Assembly (NCBI GenBank): GCA_025558095.1
Contig: JAIVFI010000018.1
Location: forward strand, 658,380 to 722,379
Direction: 5' to 3'
Source of the DNA: Hyaloraphidium curvatum
Taxonomy: Eukaryota > Monoblepharomycota > Hyaloraphidiomycetes > Hyaloraphidiales > Hyaloraphidiaceae
DNA length: 64,000 nucleotides
Positions within the stretch are counted from its first letter, which is position 1. Every line of letters starts with the position of its first letter. The notes below the pieces were generated by a model. The model searched no databases. It had not been told where the DNA came from and saw nothing but the letters and a program-made list of their open reading frames with translations. Position numbers and translations under genes: made by a program. Below, piece after piece: positions 11,686 to 41,822 of the stretch.

Positions 11686-12145
11686 GGGCATGCGAGGACC
11701 TTTTCTGGGATCGTGGGAGTTTCGGCGATCGAAATCTATGCCGGTCCGCATGAAAGAGCAACGAGACTCACCTTGTAGTCCCCCCCACCCGCGGTTCAGC
11801 GCCAGATGTCAGGCACGGTAGGCGCGACGAAAATCACAAATCCGGTGCTCTTCATCCGCCAGTCTTTGGGTGGACGAGTCAGGAAAATGACAAAAGATAC
11901 AGCACCACGTATTCCTGTGTGGTCTCCCACCACAGTACTGACGTGGCTCATACCAGCTTAACTTCAGTGGTCTGACGAGAACGGAAGCAAGCTCAAATGG
12001 AACCCGAAGGCCACGCTGCGTCGGCGGCTCGATCAAGTTTCACCGCCTGCGTCGCAAGCAGACTCAGCGGGCTTGCCCCCAAGCCTGCCCTCCGCCGAGC
12101 GCTCCTCCGCAGCATCGCCGCAATCTTAGCAATCGCAGCACCGCT
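11686..12145. other. Intergenic, no gene seen
   Basis: 460 bp between the reductase stop and the P450 start. No conserved protein, RNA gene or repeat is visible; it presumably holds the reductase terminator and the P450 promoter. Confidence 0.5.
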
Positions 12146-20682: not shown

Positions 20683-22543
20683 ATGGCCACGCCGACGGCG
20701 CTCACGATCGCGGGGTCCGACAGCGGTGGCGGCGCGGGCATCCAGGCGGACCTCAAGACGTTCAGCGCGTTCGGCGTGTTCGGCACGTCGGTCGTCGCGG
20801 CGCTCACCGCGCAGAACACGAAAGGCGTGCAGGGCGTCGTCGCCGTCGAGCCATCGTTCGTGGAGGCGCAGTGCGAGTCGGTACTCTCGGACATCGGGGC
20901 GGGTGCGGTGAAGACAGGTGGGCGACGCGTCCTCCTGTCGGGACCGGACGCGAGTTGACGCGTCTTCTGCCCTTTAGGCATGCTTTTCTCGGCACCCATT
21001 ATCGGGGTGGTCGCTTCGCAGCTGCGCAAGCACGGCGTGGCGCGGCTGGTCGTGGACCCCGTCATGGTCAGCTCGTCCGGCAGCCGGCTGCTGAGCGAGG
21101 ACGCCGTTGCCGCCCTGGCCGAGGACCTAATCCCGCTGGCCACCGTGTTGACCCCCAACACGCCCGAGGCCGAGGTGCTGTTGCAGCAAGCCGGGCGGCC
21201 CATGAAGATCGCGTCGGTGGAGGACATGAAGGTCGCCGCTCGCGCGATTCGCGAGGCGTTCGGGCCGCAGTACGTGCTGCTCAAAGGCGGCCACCTTCCC
21301 GTGTCCGACATTGCCTCTCCTGAGGTCGACGACGTGCGGACCGTGTTCCTTCCTTCCCCGACGCCGGATGCCAAGGGGCAGAACGGCGCGGCTTCGCACG
21401 TCGTAGACGTCCTCTACGACGGGCAGACCTTTGTGCAGTACCCGAAACCTCACCGCCGGACGCGCAACCTGCACGGGACGGGCTGCACGCTGTCGGCGGC
21501 CATCGCCGCGGGGCTGGCGCTGGGGAAGCCCGTGCCCGAGGCGGTTGAAGCGGCCCTGGTCTACCTCTCCAAGGCCATCGCCCCCGGCAAACCGTTTGCC
21601 GTCGGCACGGGAGCGCACGGGCCCGTGAACCACCTGCACTCCATCACCGCCGTGGCAACCCTGCTCGAGGCGCCTTCCGCGCCGCCTCCCGCCCCGTGGT
21701 CGGCCGTCGGCGCCGGCACCGACCTCGCCTCCCGTCTCATCGCCTCCTGCCCCGCCGAATGGCAATTTTTCGTCGACCACCCCTTTGTCCGCGGCATGGC
21801 CGACGGCACCCTTCCCCCGGAATCCTTCAGGCACTACATGGTCCAGGATTACCTCTACCTCACGCACTTTGCCCGCGCCTACGCGCTCGCGGCCTACAAG
21901 GAGCAGCGCATGGACGACATCCTCCGCGCCGCCGGAACGGTGCTCCAGATCGGCCGCGAGACCGAGCTGCACGTCGCGTGGTGCGCCCGCCTCGGCATAT
22001 CGAAGGAGGAGCTCGACGCCGCCCCGGAGGCCGTGGCCAACCTGTCCTACACCCGGTTCTTCCTCGAGAAGGGAGTCAGCGGGGACAGGCTGGATCTCAG
22101 GGTGGCGCTGGCGCCGTGCTTGCTGGGGTACGGGGTGATCGGGAAGAGGTTGGCGGAGGATCCGGCGACAAAGAGGGGTGGGTGGCAGGTGCGCGGGCCG
22201 GATTGGCCTTGGCTCACCTGTGTCTGGCAGACGGCAACCCGTACTGGGAGTGGATCGAGGCCTACGCCGCGGACGACTACCAGGAGGCCTGCCGCGAAGG
22301 CCGGGGTGGGTGCTCGCTCCGCCGTCGGCCGGATGCCGCTGACCGTGGTCCGCAGAGGAGCTCGAAAAGCTGTCCAAGGAGCTGCTTCCCGAGTCGAGCA
22401 AGGCCAGGATGCGGCAGCTGTGCGAAACGTTCCGCCAGGGCACGGTTCTGGAGGCCAAGTTCTGGGACAGTGGGTTCTCCCCCGGGCGTTGGTAGGGCAC
22501 GCCGCTAACCCGGTCGACAGTGGGGCTTCACTTGCAAGACTAG
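20683..22543 (+). CDS. THI20: HMP(-P) kinase / TenA fusion of thiamine biosynthesis
   Basis: Exons 20683-20917, 20978-22177, 22231-22305, 22356-22469 and 22521-22543; 548 residues. N-terminal ThiD kinase: [45 protein letters not shown] and [17 protein letters not shown]. It phosphorylates hydroxymethylpyrimidine to HMP-PP. The C-terminal half (from about residue 310) is a TenA/thiaminase II domain: [40 protein letters not shown]. The last 23-nt exon restores the typical FWDMGL end; without it the gene would stop in the intron at 22493. This two-domain order is that of fungal THI20/21. It is convergent with THI6, 35 bp between stop codons. Confidence 0.94.
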
Positions 22544-22578
22544 ATCTCTTTCTCATTTGGGCTCTGAGCAATCGAACA

Positions 22579-24245
22579 TCACTCGACCACCTCCACCTTG
22601 GCCATCTTCTCCAGAATCTCGGGCGTGAGCGCGTACAGCGCGTCGAAGAGCGCCGTCTTGAAGCTCCCCGGCCCCTGCACGGGGCCCTGGGCCACCGCCA
22701 TCTCCGCCGCGATCCCCATGGCCAGCACGCCGCCCGCCGCCGCGACCAGGTTGGCGTCCCATTCGAGGGCGACCCCCTTTGCCGCCCCCGCGAACGCACC
22801 GCACAGGGCCGCGGTGTCGCAGCCGGTGCCGGTGATCCTCCCCAGCCACTCGTTCCCGTTCGCCAGCTTGACCACCGCTCCGCCTCCCGGGGCGACGAGG
22901 TGGTCCACCGGCCCCGTCATGGCCACCGCCGCCCCGCTCTCCTTCGCCAGTCGCCTCACTAACCCCTCCGGGCCCGCAACCTCGCCCTCCGAATCCACGC
23001 CCCGCGACACGGGGCCGTCCGAACCAGCCAGGAACGCGACCTCGGCCGCGTTCCCCTTGATTATGCCCACGCGCACCCCCGCGACGATCTCGCGCGACAC
23101 CCGTTGGCGGTACGGGCTCGCGCCGGCGCCGACGGGGTCCAGCACCACGGGAAGGCCGAGCTCGTTGGCGCGGCGGCCGGCGGCCAGGAAGGAGGGGGAG
23201 GTTTCCTCGGCGAGGGTGCCGATGTTGATCACGAGGGCGCTGCAGATGGAGATGATGTCGGCGACCTCGGACATGCTGCGAGACAAGAGGGAATGTGAAC
23301 GTGGAACAGACATCGGAGCGACGGTCTGTACCTGTGGGCCATGATCGGCGAGGCGCCGATGGCGAGCAGCACGTTCGCGTTGTCGTTCATGACAACAAAG
23401 TTGGTGATCGAATGCACGAGGGGCCTCTTCTCCTTGACGGCGCGGAAGAGCGTGACGACGTCCTTGACAAAGGACTCGGCTTTGGGGCTGCGGCCCGGGG
23501 AAGCTGGCCCTCTCGGCACCGCGTCACCGGCAGCCAGGCGGGGCCGGACGATGGCAGCAAGCTCCTCCGTGGCCAATTTTGCGTCAGGTTGAGCCACGAT
23601 CGCAGAAACCACGGCCAGGCCGGCGAGACCGCGCTCAGGCTTGTCGCCATCGGCCGCCAGCTTCGCCCCTTCGAGCACGGCGGCCGCATTGTCCCTGCCG
23701 ATGCCACCGATCGCGACGATGGGGATCGGCCGCTTCCCAGCGGCGTGCTCCGCGTCCCTCAGCGCCGACAGGATGGCCTTGAGGCCTTCGATGCCGATCG
23801 AGCCCCCGCCGTCGTCGTAGACCTTGGTCTTTGTCGGAAACACGCCCGCGGTACCCAAATAATCGGCACCGGCGTTCAGCGCCTCGACGGCCTGCCTCGG
23901 ATCCTCCGCCGTCACGCCGATGATCGCGTCCTCGCCGAGCAGCTTCCGTGCCTGCGCGAGCGGCATGTCCGACTGCCCGACGTGCACGCCGTCCGCGCCG
24001 ACGGCCAGCGCGACATCGACGCGGTCGTTGATGAGCAGCGGCACGCCGCGGGCGCGGCACAGCGCGGCAATCTCGCGCGCGAGCTCGATGAACGGCCGCG
24101 TCGACGCGTTCTTCTCGCGGAGCTGGACGATCGTCGCCCCGCCGCGCAGCGCCTCGTCCACGACGCCCGGCAGCGTCCTGCCGGGCGGGACGAGCGTCGA
24201 GTCGGTGACGAGGTAGACGGAGAGGTCGAGCGGCGGACGGGGCAT
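22579..24245 (-). CDS. THI6: Bifunctional thiamine-phosphate synthase / hydroxyethylthiazole kinase
   Basis: Minus-strand exons 24245-23332 and 23275-22579 (56-bp intron), 536 residues. Residues 1-230 are Thi[61 protein letters not shown]. Residues from about 265 are Thi[35 protein letters not shown] (across the intron), [22 protein letters not shown] and the anion-hole motif GTGCDTAA. It couples HMP-PP with hydroxyethylthiazole phosphate to give thiamine phosphate. This fusion is the fungal THI6 arrangement. The ATG at 24245 is used; the longer frame has only TTG upstream. Together with adjacent THI20 it forms a two-gene thiamine block. Confidence 0.95.
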
Positions 24246-30682: not shown

Positions 30683-33466
<2,784 letters not shown>

Positions 33467-33622
33467 CGCTGTTCGGTAGCTTCGGAAGCGCGATTCAATA
33501 GCGCGTTTTCGGTGTTCTAGGGCCCTTTAGCAACTGTCGCCCAGTTGGGAAGAGAGTCCTTCCGCGACGCGCCGTGGCGCAAGTCAACCCGCGGTCAACA
33601 CTTCAGGGACTCCCCAGCGCGG
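33467..33622. promoter_or_regulatory. Bidirectional promoter of PTA and acetate kinase
   Basis: Only 156 bp separate the two start codons of the functionally coupled, divergent PTA and ACK genes. Both promoters and 5' UTRs must fit here, so coordinated control is likely. No specific binding motif is claimed. Confidence 0.6.
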
Positions 33623-37122: not shown

Positions 37123-40100
37123 ATGGATCCGCTCACGCTGACGGCGCTCGCCATCTGGGCCGGCGCTGCGGGCGCCGCCGTCCTCGCAGGATTCGTCGCG
37201 GCCGCGCCGTCGGCGACGGTCGAATGGGCGCTGTACCGCGTCGAGTTCGGCGGGCCCATCAAGGCGCTCGGACACGCGACGATCGGCTTCCGTGGGTTCC
37301 TTGCCGTTGCTCCATATTCTTGTTACCTATTCTGACTCGCGGAACGGCATTTCGGTCGGTTCCCCAACCCCGACGCGGCCGGATCACTTTCGCCACTACT
37401 CTTCCGCCGGCAGGCGTGACCCCAATCAATGCGGCCCTCCTGCTACTGATCATCGGCGTTGCCGGCATCGTCGCCACGTTTTCGGCCAAGAACCTCGTCG
37501 GCCAGCACCGTATCCTGCGGTACTGCGTGCTCCAGCTCTGCCTCGTCGGCTCCCTGGCCCTGGCGGTCACCGCCGCGTCGCTTCCCCTTGTTATCCTCGG
37601 CTGGTGTGCCGGCGGACTTGCTGTCGCGTCCCTGGTCTCCCACACGGGCACCAAACCGGCCGAGTTCTCGGCGGCGGTTACTCGGTCTCGGCTCCTGTTC
37701 GGCGACCTCTGCATCCTGATCGCCTTCGTGCTCTTGGGCGTCTCGGTCGGCAGCATGGACCTTGCGGACGTGTTTTCCTTCTCAGTCAACCAGCCCGAGG
37801 GGCCTGCCAACCCTCTGACCACCGCGGCCGTCTTTCTGATGATGATTGGCGGCGGCACCCGGTCCACCTTGGTGCCCTTCTACGATTGGCTGCCCGAGAC
37901 CGCTGAAGCCCCTACTCCGGTGTCTGCTCTGCTTCACGCTGGTACGTTCCTGACCAAACTCTTTGTTGCCGCCGGCACTGAACCTTGCGCTCGTCCAGGT
38001 ATCGTCAACGGCATTGGTGTCTTTGGCCTTCTACTCTGGCCCGTGTTCCGCTCGGTGCCCATCGCCAACTACTTCCTGCTGACCCAAGGTGTCCTCACGG
38101 CGCTATTCGGCATTGCCCAAGCCCGTGTGCGCGCCGACGTCAAGGGCCGCCTTGCCGCTTCGACCACGTCGCAGATGGGGTTCGTGATCACTTGCTCCTT
38201 GGCTGATTCCCGGTTCCTAACTCTGCCCTGCACCAGATACCTCGCCGTGCAGGTCGCTCTGGGTCTTCCGGCGGCCGCATTCACCCACTTGGTCGGCCAC
38301 GGTCTTTGGAAAGCCGGCCTCTTCCTCCAGGCCGGAGGCGCCGTCGAGCGCGTCCGTGCCGCTCCGGATCACCACGTTCACGAGCTCAAGGCCTCGCGCT
38401 GGCTCATCGCTGCTGCCGTCTCGGCTGTCGTAATCTTCCTCGCCCTCCTGCTCCCCGGCCTCATCCACGGCACCTTCGCGATCACTGTTCACTCGACCTA
38501 CGACATCGTCGCCTTCCTCGTGGCGTGGTTCGCCGGGACCTGCGCTCTGGTTCCCGCGACGACACCCAAGGCGTACGCCGTCGTCTGCACGGCCGTGTTT
38601 CTCTACGTGCTCGGCGCCGAGACCATGAACGCCGTCGTCGGCAACCTGAACGAGGTCGACGGCCCGCCCCGCTGGGCCTGGTACGAGTTCCTCGTGATCG
38701 GCATCCTCGTTGCCATCGCCACGGCCGCGGTCTGGATGGACCAGATGATGCGCAAGGGTTACTTCCGGCCCATCGCTTCCTGGGTCGCGCAGACCTCCAT
38801 GCCCCCGATCGGCATCGTCGACTGGTTCGTTCGCCCTCGGCTTGTGGTGCCCGACGACCTGCGCAAGATCCCCGCCCTCAAGAACTCAGCACAGCTCGCC
38901 GAGCCCGTGCGCAGCCGCCACCGCAACTCGTTCACCTCGCGCGACATCATGCCGGACGTCATGCAGGCCATGAACCACGTCGCGCCCGTCTGGCCGCTGG
39001 CCTCGTTCGTCGCTTCCAACCCGCTGGCCGGCCTGGAGGACCTGTCTTTCCGCGACGCGCTGGCTGCCGCTCGCCGTTCGTGGGGTTCCAACACCGGCCC
39101 GGACGCCTTCATCATGCGGCGCGCCGCGGACGAGTGGCGGATCGGCTTGGTCGATGCCGTCAGGGAGCTGGCCCGGGAGCCGCAGCTCCTCGAAGCCGGG
39201 CAGGCCGAGTTCCGCGTCGCCGGTAAGAGTTTCGGCCGCAAGGAGTTCCTGCGCAAGCTCGCGCTCGGCGGGGCCGCCATCCCCGCCGGTTCGGAGGACA
39301 AGATCCGGCAGCTCGTCAAGGACTGGATCCGTGCCGGCAACGAGCTCGAATTCAACTTCCCCTCGGTCCGCACCCCGCTCGAGTCCCTCTGCACGCAGCA
39401 CCGCGGTCTCCGGCCGTACGACGAGCTGGCCCGCACCTTCGGCTCGCTCCTTTTCTCCCGCGTGCTGGGCGACCCTGCCTGGCCGGCCACGGGCATGGAC
39501 GGGCCCGCTACGGGCATCTGGGACGCCTTCCGGTACAAGGCCGCCGCCGGCGCCATCGACGGCGCTCTGGGTCTGACGGGTGCCGACCGCTTCGTGCGCA
39601 AGCTGCCGGCCTCCGCCACCAACGCCCTGCAGATGATGCTGGAGGAGATGGGCGCCGAGAGCGTGGGCGTCGACCGGCCCACACTGCTCGCGCGCTACCT
39701 TGCCCGGGAGCCCGGGTGGCCCGCGCACGTCGCCTGGCGCGTGCGCCAGAACCGGGACCCCAAGGGCGGCGTCGTCGAGATCCTCGCCGTCCGGGTCGCG
39801 CTCGAGGCCGCCATCCTGCTCGCCTACTACAACCGCCAGATCGCCGTGGAGGACGTCGAGGGCGAGCGCGCCCCCCTGCTCGGCGGCGGGCTGAGCAAGT
39901 CGTTCGAGGAGGCCGACGCCGAGGCGGCCGAGGCCGAGGCCGTCGACCGGATGGTGGAAGCCTGCGAGGCCCTGGCCGTGGACCCCGCCGAGCTGCGCCC
40001 CCAGGATGTGGACATTCTGCTCGCCGTGACAGCTTCCGTCGACCCCGTCGCCATCGGTCAGGTCCGCTTCCGGATCCTCGAGGAGGCCTTCCGCGGGAAC

Positions 40101-41822
40101 CTCATCCAGGGCATCCACAAGACCCTCGGCCTCGTTCCCCCGCCTCCCCCGCCGGACGCTCAGGTGGTCTTCTGCATCGATGTGCGCTCGGGTCGTCTCC
40201 GGCGCCAGCTCGAGCACCTCGGCCGGCCTTGGGAGACCTTTGGCGCCGCCGGCTTCTTCGGCCTCCCTCTTCGCCACGTCGACCCCCGCGGCGCTTGCTC
40301 AGATCGGTGCCCCGCACTGCTCATTCCCGACCGCGAGGTCATCGAAGCGGCGCCGTCGGGTCCCGTCAAGCTGGGCATCGCCGAGGCCGCGGTGGAGGAG
40401 ATCGAAGTCAAGGCCGTCGCTCCCTTCGCGTGAGTTGTTCGCGGTCTCATTGCTTTCCTGCCTTTCTAAGCGTTATCCTCGCAGCTTTGCCGAGGCCGCC
40501 GGATGGATCACGGGCCCGCTTTCGCTCTTCCGTACCCTCCTCCCGCCTCTGTACGACCGCTTCTTCGGGACCTCGCGGGTCGTGGGCGAGATGCCACTGG
40601 AGGACGACATCAAGCCCGACGCGGTCGCGGTCGGCATCGAGGACGACAGCCTCTCGCAGCGGCTCCCCGGCTTCTCCGTCGACGAGCTCGTCGGCGCCTG
40701 CGCCAACTTCCTCAACACCACCGGCTTCACCAGCTTCTCGCCCCTGGTCGTGCTCTGCGGCCACGGCGCCTCGGTCGCCAACAACCCTCACGTCGCGGCG
40801 TACGACTGCGGTGCCTGCGGCGGCTTCTCGGGCGACGTCTCGTCGCGCGCCATGTGCGAGGCCCTCAACTCGCCCCGTGTGCGCGCCGGGCTCGCCGCCA
40901 AGGGCATCTCGATCCCCGCCGACACGCACTTCACGCCGGCCGTCCACGACACCACCCGCGACCTAATCCACCTGCTCGAGCCGGCCCGGGTTCCCGAGCG
41001 GCTCCAGGCGACCCTCAAGAAGCTGGAACAGGACCTCGCGACCGCTGCCGACGCTTCCCTCATCGAGCGGTTCCCGGAGCTGCCCGGCGCCCCGATCACC
41101 TCGTCGCTCGACGTCATGCGCCGCCACGTCGCCGTCCGCGCCGTCGACTGGGGTCAGGTGGGTTGATTCGGGGACCGAATCTCGAAGCCGGACCTGACTT
41201 GGCCTTTGCTCAGCCCCGACCCGAGTGGGGTCTCTGCACCAACGCCTGCATGGTCATCGGACCGCGGCACCTCACCAGCCAGCTGAAGCTCAACGGCCGC
41301 TCCTTCCTGCAGTCCTACGAGCCCTCGATCGACACCACCGGCGCCGCCCTCACCTTCCTCATGACGGCCCCACTCGTCGTCGGCCACTGGATTTCGTCGC
41401 AGTACCTCATGTCGACCATCGACCCCGACCGCTTCGGCGCCGGCGACAAGACCACGCACGACGTCGTCTGCGCGCACGACGGCACCCCGAGCCTCCTCAC
41501 CGGCGTGCTCACCGGCGTCCGCGGGGACATCCGGATCGGCCTGCCGTGGCAGGCGGTCTCGGCCACGGCGCCCATCGCGGGGCGCTGGGTCTCGTCGACC
41601 TTCCACGAGCCCGTGCGGCTGTTTGGGATCATCTACGCCAAGACGGCGGCGATCGACGCGGTGCTCGAGGCGCAGGAGAGCATCGGCAAGCTCGTGCGCG
41701 GCGAGTGGCTGCACATCTGCTCGATCGACCCCGAGACCAAGGAGATGCAGCGCCGGATGCCGGGCGGGGGTTGGAAGAAGGAGGAGGCGCTGGTTTACGA
41801 GTCGCGGGAGTCGCTGAACTAA
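37123..41822 (+). CDS. Fused DabB-DabA inorganic-carbon transporter (NuoL-like + DUF2309)
   Basis: Six exons: 37123-37291, 37414-37941, 37999-38179, 38237-40429, 40485-41157, 41214-41822; 1450 residues, frame consistent throughout. Residues 1 to about 560 are a multi-pass proton-channel subunit related to NuoL/MrpA (DabB): DWLPETAEAPTPVSALLHAG, TTSQMGYLAVQVALG, THLVGHGLWKAGLFL. After a linker the rest is DabA (DUF2309): RDIMPDVMQAMNHVAPVWPL and ASNPLAGLEDLSF. Zinc-site residues of the beta-carbonic-anhydrase-like centre are present: C939 and D941 in FCIDVRS, H1117 in CGHGAS, C1132 in YDCGACGG. The His-to-Cys spacing of 15 equals that recalled for Halothiobacillus DabA (H524, C539). It would couple ion flow to CO2 hydration. 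No clear organelle presequence. Codon use and introns match the host. Confidence 0.93.

Follow-up and report, generated by a model that had tools for sequence, protein, structure and literature searches.

A single-chain DabB-DabA gene with introns in the fungus Hyaloraphidium curvatum: a probable CO2-hydrating enzyme of likely actinobacterial origin

DABs, described as carbon-uptake machines of prokaryotes, attract interest for CO2-concentrating mechanisms. The gene considered here lies in a 64,000-nucleotide stretch of contig JAIVFI010000018.1 of the fungus Hyaloraphidium curvatum (the window, meaning that whole stretch) and joins the two DAB subunits, DabB and DabA, in one protein. The reference for comparison is DAB2 of Halothiobacillus neapolitanus, composed of DabA2 and DabB2 (PDB 9rd0, 9rd8 and 9rd9; PMC13144422). 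In DAB2, an engineered DabB2-DabA2 fusion did not significantly affect growth yield, and ion-pair mutants still complemented, at lower yield (PMC13144422). Leu658 is strictly conserved in 150 homologues, and Gln, Gly, Ala or Asn at this position still supported growth (PMC13144422). That paper further describes DAB2 as serving CO2 uptake, reports homologues in heterotrophs, mentions a natural single-subunit DAB/DAC in Acidimicrobium ferrooxidans (citing Schmid et al. 2021), and presents MpsAB of the heterotroph Staphylococcus aureus as a homologue for which Na+/HCO3- symport has been proposed (PMC13144422). The initial annotation of the fungal locus, made from the sequence, had called the system a two-gene one; the Acidimicrobium form (PMC13144422) makes the label too narrow.

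Gene model, domains and conserved residues

The locus had been read as six exons forming one 1450-codon frame that fuses DabB to DabA. This reading holds, as the spliced frame contains no internal stop and two Pfam domains each cover one half (Table 1). PF10070 (DabA) matches the catalytic half with E=5.8e-167 over profile positions 2-747 of 747, and PF00361 (Proton_antipo_M) matches the NuoL-like membrane half with E=6.7e-30. No further domain was found by Pfam in the 1469-residue version, with intron 3 still in, that served for this run and for the first relative search. A profile built from the window protein, 12 proteins of the same DabB-DabA order (B-A) and two DabA-only proteins matches both solved DAB2 chains (9rd0_A, E=9.6e-195; 9rd0_B, E=6.6e-61). 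These matches are beyond chance, and the gene is a member of the DAB/DAC family.

Relatives were collected in searches that each scored only the 8000 candidates sharing most words. The collection holds 240 proteins (the best 120 of 133 and the best 120 of 310) plus the window protein, and divides by domain order into 84 B-A proteins, including the window protein and its NCBI model, 107 of the reverse DabA-DabB order (A-B), and 50 with DabA alone. DAB2 residues taken from PMC13144422 were mapped through alignment to the 9rd0 chains, and the corresponding columns were counted over the collected sequences.

The four zinc-site residues named in the initial annotation (C939, D941, H1117 and C1132) all stand at those positions in the spliced protein, and R943 is in place as well. 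Three of them correspond to the DAB2 zinc ligands C351, H524 and C539 (C939, H1117 and C1132), while D941 and R943 match the dyad D353-R355. Ligands and dyad are universal in all four groups wherever a residue is present, with gaps at these columns in up to 10/107 A-B and up to 1/84 B-A proteins. The finger glutamate E444 of DAB2 is E1027 here, and the column holds Glu in 80/83 and Asp in 3/83 B-A proteins, with one gap. DAB2 L658 is matched by L1255; all 81 B-A proteins with a residue at this column have Leu (three gaps). A376, F378, R653 and W656 of DAB2 are also kept. Along the proton path of DabB, seven of seven residues are identical: S227, H231, K281, S287, H310, H314 and K318 stand for S256, H260, K310, S316, H339, H343 and K347. 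The zinc-site, dyad, finger and proton-path residues compared here had been probed by mutagenesis in DAB2 (PMC13144422).

The exon model itself is predicted from sequence and homology. Introns 2 and 3 have lengths that are multiples of three and contain no stop, so their removal is not forced by the reading frame; homology backs it, because the bacterial relatives P0003 and P0004 lack an insert at both points (LLHAGLVNG or LLHAGFVNG at one, QMGYL at the other). Seven in-frame options were listed for intron 3, the chosen one included; the alternatives also keep the frame, but only removal of 38180-38236 restores the family motif, and NCBI splices out the same stretch. The NCBI model (P0001, DFJ74DRAFT_133295, 1290 residues, 'hypothetical protein', Hyaloraphidium curvatum) begins at M171, treats intron 2 as coding sequence and lacks nine residues. 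Retention of intron 2 or 3, both in the DabB half, would add 19 residues with the frame intact, and intron 2 directly follows the proton-path H231 (HAG). The nine residues absent from the NCBI model belong to the region of an acidic segment, residues 831-861 (EDVEGERAPLLGGGLSKSFEEADAEAAEAEA), and a similar stretch was seen by eye in the relative P0002.

Table 1. Coordinates of the fused gene, of other features in the window and of the second DAB gene (window positions, except those on L006)
Feature	Position	Strand	Details
Whole gene, fused DabB-DabA, 1450 residues	37123..41822	+	spliced frame, Pfam, NCBI name
Exon 1	37123..37291	+	from first ATG of its open frame; N-terminus not presequence-like
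Intron 1	37292..37413	+	122 nt, phase 1, GT..AG
Exon 2	37414..37941	+	
Intron 2	37942..37998	+	57 nt, phase 1, GT..AG; stop-free; coding in NCBI model
Exon 3	37999..38179	+	
Intron 3	38180..38236	+	57 nt, phase 2, GT..AG; stop-free; QMGYL family motif restored on removal
Exon 4	38237..40429	+	DabB end, linker, first DabA part including C939, D941, R943
Intron 4	40430..40484	+	55 nt, phase 2, GT..AG
Exon 5	40485..41157	+	carries H1117 and C1132
Intron 5	41158..41213	+	56 nt, phase 0, GT..AG
Exon 6 and stop	41214..41822	+	
DabB (NuoL-like) half, residues 1-500	37123..38858	+	alignment to DAB2 chain
DabA half, residues 526-1450	38934..41819	+	alignment to DAB2 chain
Phosphate acetyltransferase (PTA_PTB, borderline AAA_26)	31331-33526	-	upstream of the DAB gene, some 3.6 kb away
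Phosphomethylpyrimidine kinase fused to TENA/THI-4	20959-22959	+	
5S rRNA gene	11897-12008	-	no other match to Rfam reaches gathering threshold in the window
Second gene (contig C7), DabA-DabB order	L006:4668-8932		NCBI DFJ74DRAFT_641843 = P0121, 1384 residues
Intron of second gene	L006:4769-4818		50 nt, between presequence-like first exon and body

Origin of the fusion and the question of the host

Apart from the window protein and its NCBI record, 82 B-A proteins were collected, and those from named organisms are all actinobacterial. They include fused proteins of Longivirga (P0011), Nanopelagicales (P0012, P0024), Isoptericola (P0044) and Terrabacter (P0246). These five share the domain order of the fungal protein and measure 1377-1478 residues; the fungal protein nests among them, with 39-43% identity to P0011, P0012, P0024 and P0044. 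Unlike these fusions, it sits on its own branch with P0002, a protein from a 20 kb metagenome contig; the two share 57.5% identity across 723 aligned positions of DabA. The frame of P0002 ends in VDWAQ-VSFGEES-stop, exactly at the position of intron 5 in the window gene (after VDWGQ). Because it stops at this point, P0002 is probably from another eukaryote that shares the intron. A search started from P0002 returned P0001 as best relative (53%, among the best 120 of 163), and no other named fungus stood among the relatives listed in the searches from the window protein, the C7 protein or P0002.

Trees were computed from 78 rows for DabA and 62 rows for DabB, picked by hand out of the 241 proteins together with 80 bacterial loci. 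In the DabA tree, the window protein pairs with P0002 (Shimodaira-Hasegawa-like approximate likelihood ratio test, SH-aLRT, 100), and the pair lies within a set of 15 rows (SH-aLRT 99) made up of B-A proteins and one DabA-only protein, whose named members are actinobacterial and the remainder unnamed. The DabB half falls within a set of 18 B-A rows (SH-aLRT 99). A full-length tree (27 rows, LG+G4) places the protein in a set of 19 rows supported at 100/100, with no closest genus. The transfer from bacteria proposed by the initial annotation is thus borne out, since both halves are placed among actinobacterial B-A proteins, and the trees of the two halves fit one donor group. The idea that the eukaryote fused the subunits is not supported: fusion within the fungus is rejected on the DabA, DabB and full-length trees, as the protein nests among already fused actinobacterial proteins, which would make the fusion older than the transfer. 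Most likely, judging from these placements, the fungus acquired the gene ready-fused from an actinobacterium and gained its introns afterwards; that they were gained had also been suggested earlier, and bacterial relatives lack them.

Some features of the trees count against so simple an account. The DabB half of the window protein sits on a long branch (1.05), and its position inside the 18-row set is not settled. Deep branching differs between DabB and DabA, and the B-A set stands beside three Pseudomonadota loci in the former (95). Moreover, the program flagged odd composition in many tree rows.

The attribution to a fungus agrees with the NCBI record, which belongs to Hyaloraphidium curvatum, a species in Fungi, Monoblepharomycota, and which is the best database match of the window protein. 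Bacterial contamination or misassembly would explain why, that record excepted, the nearest relatives with a named organism are bacterial, but it is hardly credible here. The gene carries five GT..AG introns of 55-122 nt, and it lies on a 722 kb contig, in a window that also holds a MYND finger, a Phos_pyr_kin-TENA fusion and a P450. The finger gene is located just downstream of the DAB gene and an APH-type phosphotransferase just upstream, and these eukaryotic-type genes on both flanks make contamination unlikely. The GC content at third codon positions, 0.89 in a four-intron version of the gene, compares with 0.86 and 0.77 in two hand-picked neighbouring open reading frames. Elsewhere in the window, a Fungal_trans match below cut-off also fits a eukaryote, and an FMO-like match was seen, with 8/10 and 4/9 open reading frames of two sets lacking any match.

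A second gene and the A-B family

Hyaloraphidium curvatum encodes another DAB protein on contig C7, in the opposite domain order. A search of the whole genome with PF10070 gave at least five matches, in two genes (that of the window and that of C7), and at least three matches to PF00361 all fall within the same two. The NCBI model of the C7 gene omits a stretch near the C-terminus. A shared origin of the two fungal genes is rejected: the DabA tree places them in different sets, one of 34 rows and another of 44, both supported at 100, and over aligned positions the identity of their proteins is 28% for DabA and 18% for DabB.

The A-B proteins, C7 included, form one clade with support of 100 in both the DabA and DabB trees. 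Members with a named or typed source are all eukaryotic: H. curvatum, two Amoebophrya proteins (P0226, P0229), and EukProt (P0150, P0156, P0163, P0171) and MMETSP entries. The majority of the family consists of unnamed metagenome sequences, which are counted as eukaryotic by clade and N-terminus only. Among related bacterial loci, 71/80 have separate, adjacent DabA and DabB genes in that order and 9/80 DabA only; no fused A-B gene was found in these 80 GTDB loci, the best of at least 577 confirmed, ordered by how well they matched an A-B query, a ranking that favours the A-then-B arrangement. A viral origin or spread was also considered and rejected: when the A-B alignment, and not the B-A family, was run against viral contigs, 10 stretches gave a match but no relative was encoded in any of them.

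The A-B family resembles the window protein in uniting two domains in one chain with the same zinc site, and differs in its reverse order and separate clade. At the column of DAB2 Leu658, His is found in 107/107 A-B proteins, 80/80 bacterial loci and 13/50 DabA-only proteins. Glu is absent from the 444 column (0/103 A-B) and from within three columns of it (0/107), although the finger may be poorly aligned between groups. Proton-path positions are also replaced: Tyr at H260 in 96/105, Leu or Met at H339 in 95/104 and Arg at K347 in 103/103. These substitutions at residues of the DAB2 mechanism suggest that the C7 copy may work differently from DAB2.

Presequence-like N-termini occur in 31 of the 48 testable A-B proteins. 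Testable proteins have a start Met followed by 30 or more residues ahead of DabA, and presequence-like means a net charge of at least +4 in the first 40 residues with no acidic residue before position 17, limits that were chosen after the N-termini had been inspected. By the same measure, 2.5% of random windows from the same proteins, 2/48 bacterial DabA-only proteins and 8/83 B-A proteins qualify. The C7 protein has no acidic residue in its first 103 positions and a net charge of +5 over the first 40, which fits a mitochondrial presequence; the N-terminus of the window protein does not. Three metagenome A-B proteins (P0201, P0211 and P0198) look as if they start with a signal peptide followed by a transit peptide, with VTG-FQAP and GEA-FTVP in the first two, an arrangement resembling the bipartite targeting signals of complex plastids. 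Among algal A-B DABs, some may accordingly be plastid proteins.

Tentatively, A-B DABs could represent an overlooked eukaryotic system of protists and this fungus, imported into mitochondria and possibly algal plastids, that would form matrix bicarbonate in one direction at the expense of the organelle proton motive force. H. curvatum would then have two pumps of separate origins and opposite domain orders in two membranes. A mitochondrial location for the family is opposed by both Amoebophrya and both MMETSP proteins, which fail the presequence measure.

Proposed function, alternatives and known systems

We consider it likely, from family membership and retained residues, that the window gene encodes a one-chain DAB/DAC of actinobacterial fused origin, a CO2-to-bicarbonate enzyme driven one way by the proton motive force. 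The DabB half would sit in the membrane and conduct protons down this force, and the DabA half would use a buried zinc site, like that of beta-carbonic anhydrases, to turn CO2 into bicarbonate in one direction only. If expressed and active, as we infer, the protein would probably reside in a proton-energised membrane other than the mitochondrial one, for example the plasma membrane, where DabA would lie on the cytosolic side, because its N-terminus is hydrophobic and not presequence-like. Its presumed job would be to provide bicarbonate for carboxylases when CO2 is scarce, and the C7 product may do similar work in the mitochondrial matrix. No RuBisCO match was found in the H. curvatum genome with a query that matched 5/14 control genomes, which points to a non-autotrophic use and led to rejection of a RuBisCO-linked role. 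With at least three beta-carbonic-anhydrase places in the genome, one of them with two internal TGA codons, a role as replacement for carbonic anhydrase was rejected too. Taken together, these two results leave carboxylase supply as a presumption.

Several points weigh against this proposal. The NCBI model is shorter and retains intron 2, and the beta-carbonic-anhydrase places mean that the pump is no simple replacement. The ion pair of DAB2 is altered, K235 being R206 and R182 being L151 here, with D185 kept as D154. The same departures run across the B-A proteins, window included (Arg at 235 in 79/83, Leu at 182 in 56/81), and these positions are not treated here as defining for the family, because the DAB2 mutants still complement. 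Finally, sequence does not tell H+ from Na+ coupling. An MpsAB-type bicarbonate transporter coupled to Na+, in place of a proton-driven CO2 hydratase, would suit the altered K235 and R182 positions and the symport proposed for MpsAB (PMC13144422). It is nonetheless quite unlikely, as the residues needed by DAB2 are kept, finger glutamate E1027 included, and the authors of the DAB2 study present arguments against sodium as its coupling ion (PMC13144422).

The alternative of pH homeostasis or CO2 sensing, with no carboxylase to supply, draws on the shift of pH that proton-coupled hydration should cause on both sides of the membrane and on the beta-carbonic anhydrases already present. We regard it as rather unlikely, since Pfam finds no additional domain and the described DAB2 serves CO2 uptake (PMC13144422). 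Reading the gene as a relic of the transfer that drifts without function or expression draws on its 'hypothetical protein' label and the shortened NCBI model, but this is improbable given an open frame of 1450 codons, the kept catalytic columns, and P0002, with its similar acidic segment by eye and apparently the same intron 5.

Both fungal proteins and their relatives are already public with Pfam domains attached. No report of DABs in fungi or other eukaryotes was found in the titles and abstract openings of papers listed by searches of an open-licence library, a scope that excludes key DAB papers. A system described from prokaryotes also exists in eukaryotes, and the intron-bearing single-chain genes show that such a machine can be encoded and retained by a eukaryotic genome. 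Natural fusions are ready-made candidates for trials in yeast. They also prompt one to ask how energy-driven bicarbonate production benefits a heterotroph in which no RuBisCO was detected. The A-B family, with probable organelle presequences and His where DAB2 has Leu, offers natural proteins on which to test what that residue does.

Among known systems, MpsAB is a homologous one from a heterotroph, and the DAC of Acidimicrobium ferrooxidans is single-chain like it; the first is likened by description and not by sequence, the second by description and not by sequence or domain order. Canonical beta-carbonic anhydrases have a transition-state Gln or His at the position of L658, where the window protein has Leu instead. 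Compared with DAB2, the fungal protein is one chain and not two, its gene has five introns, and it carries the acidic segment at residues 831-861.

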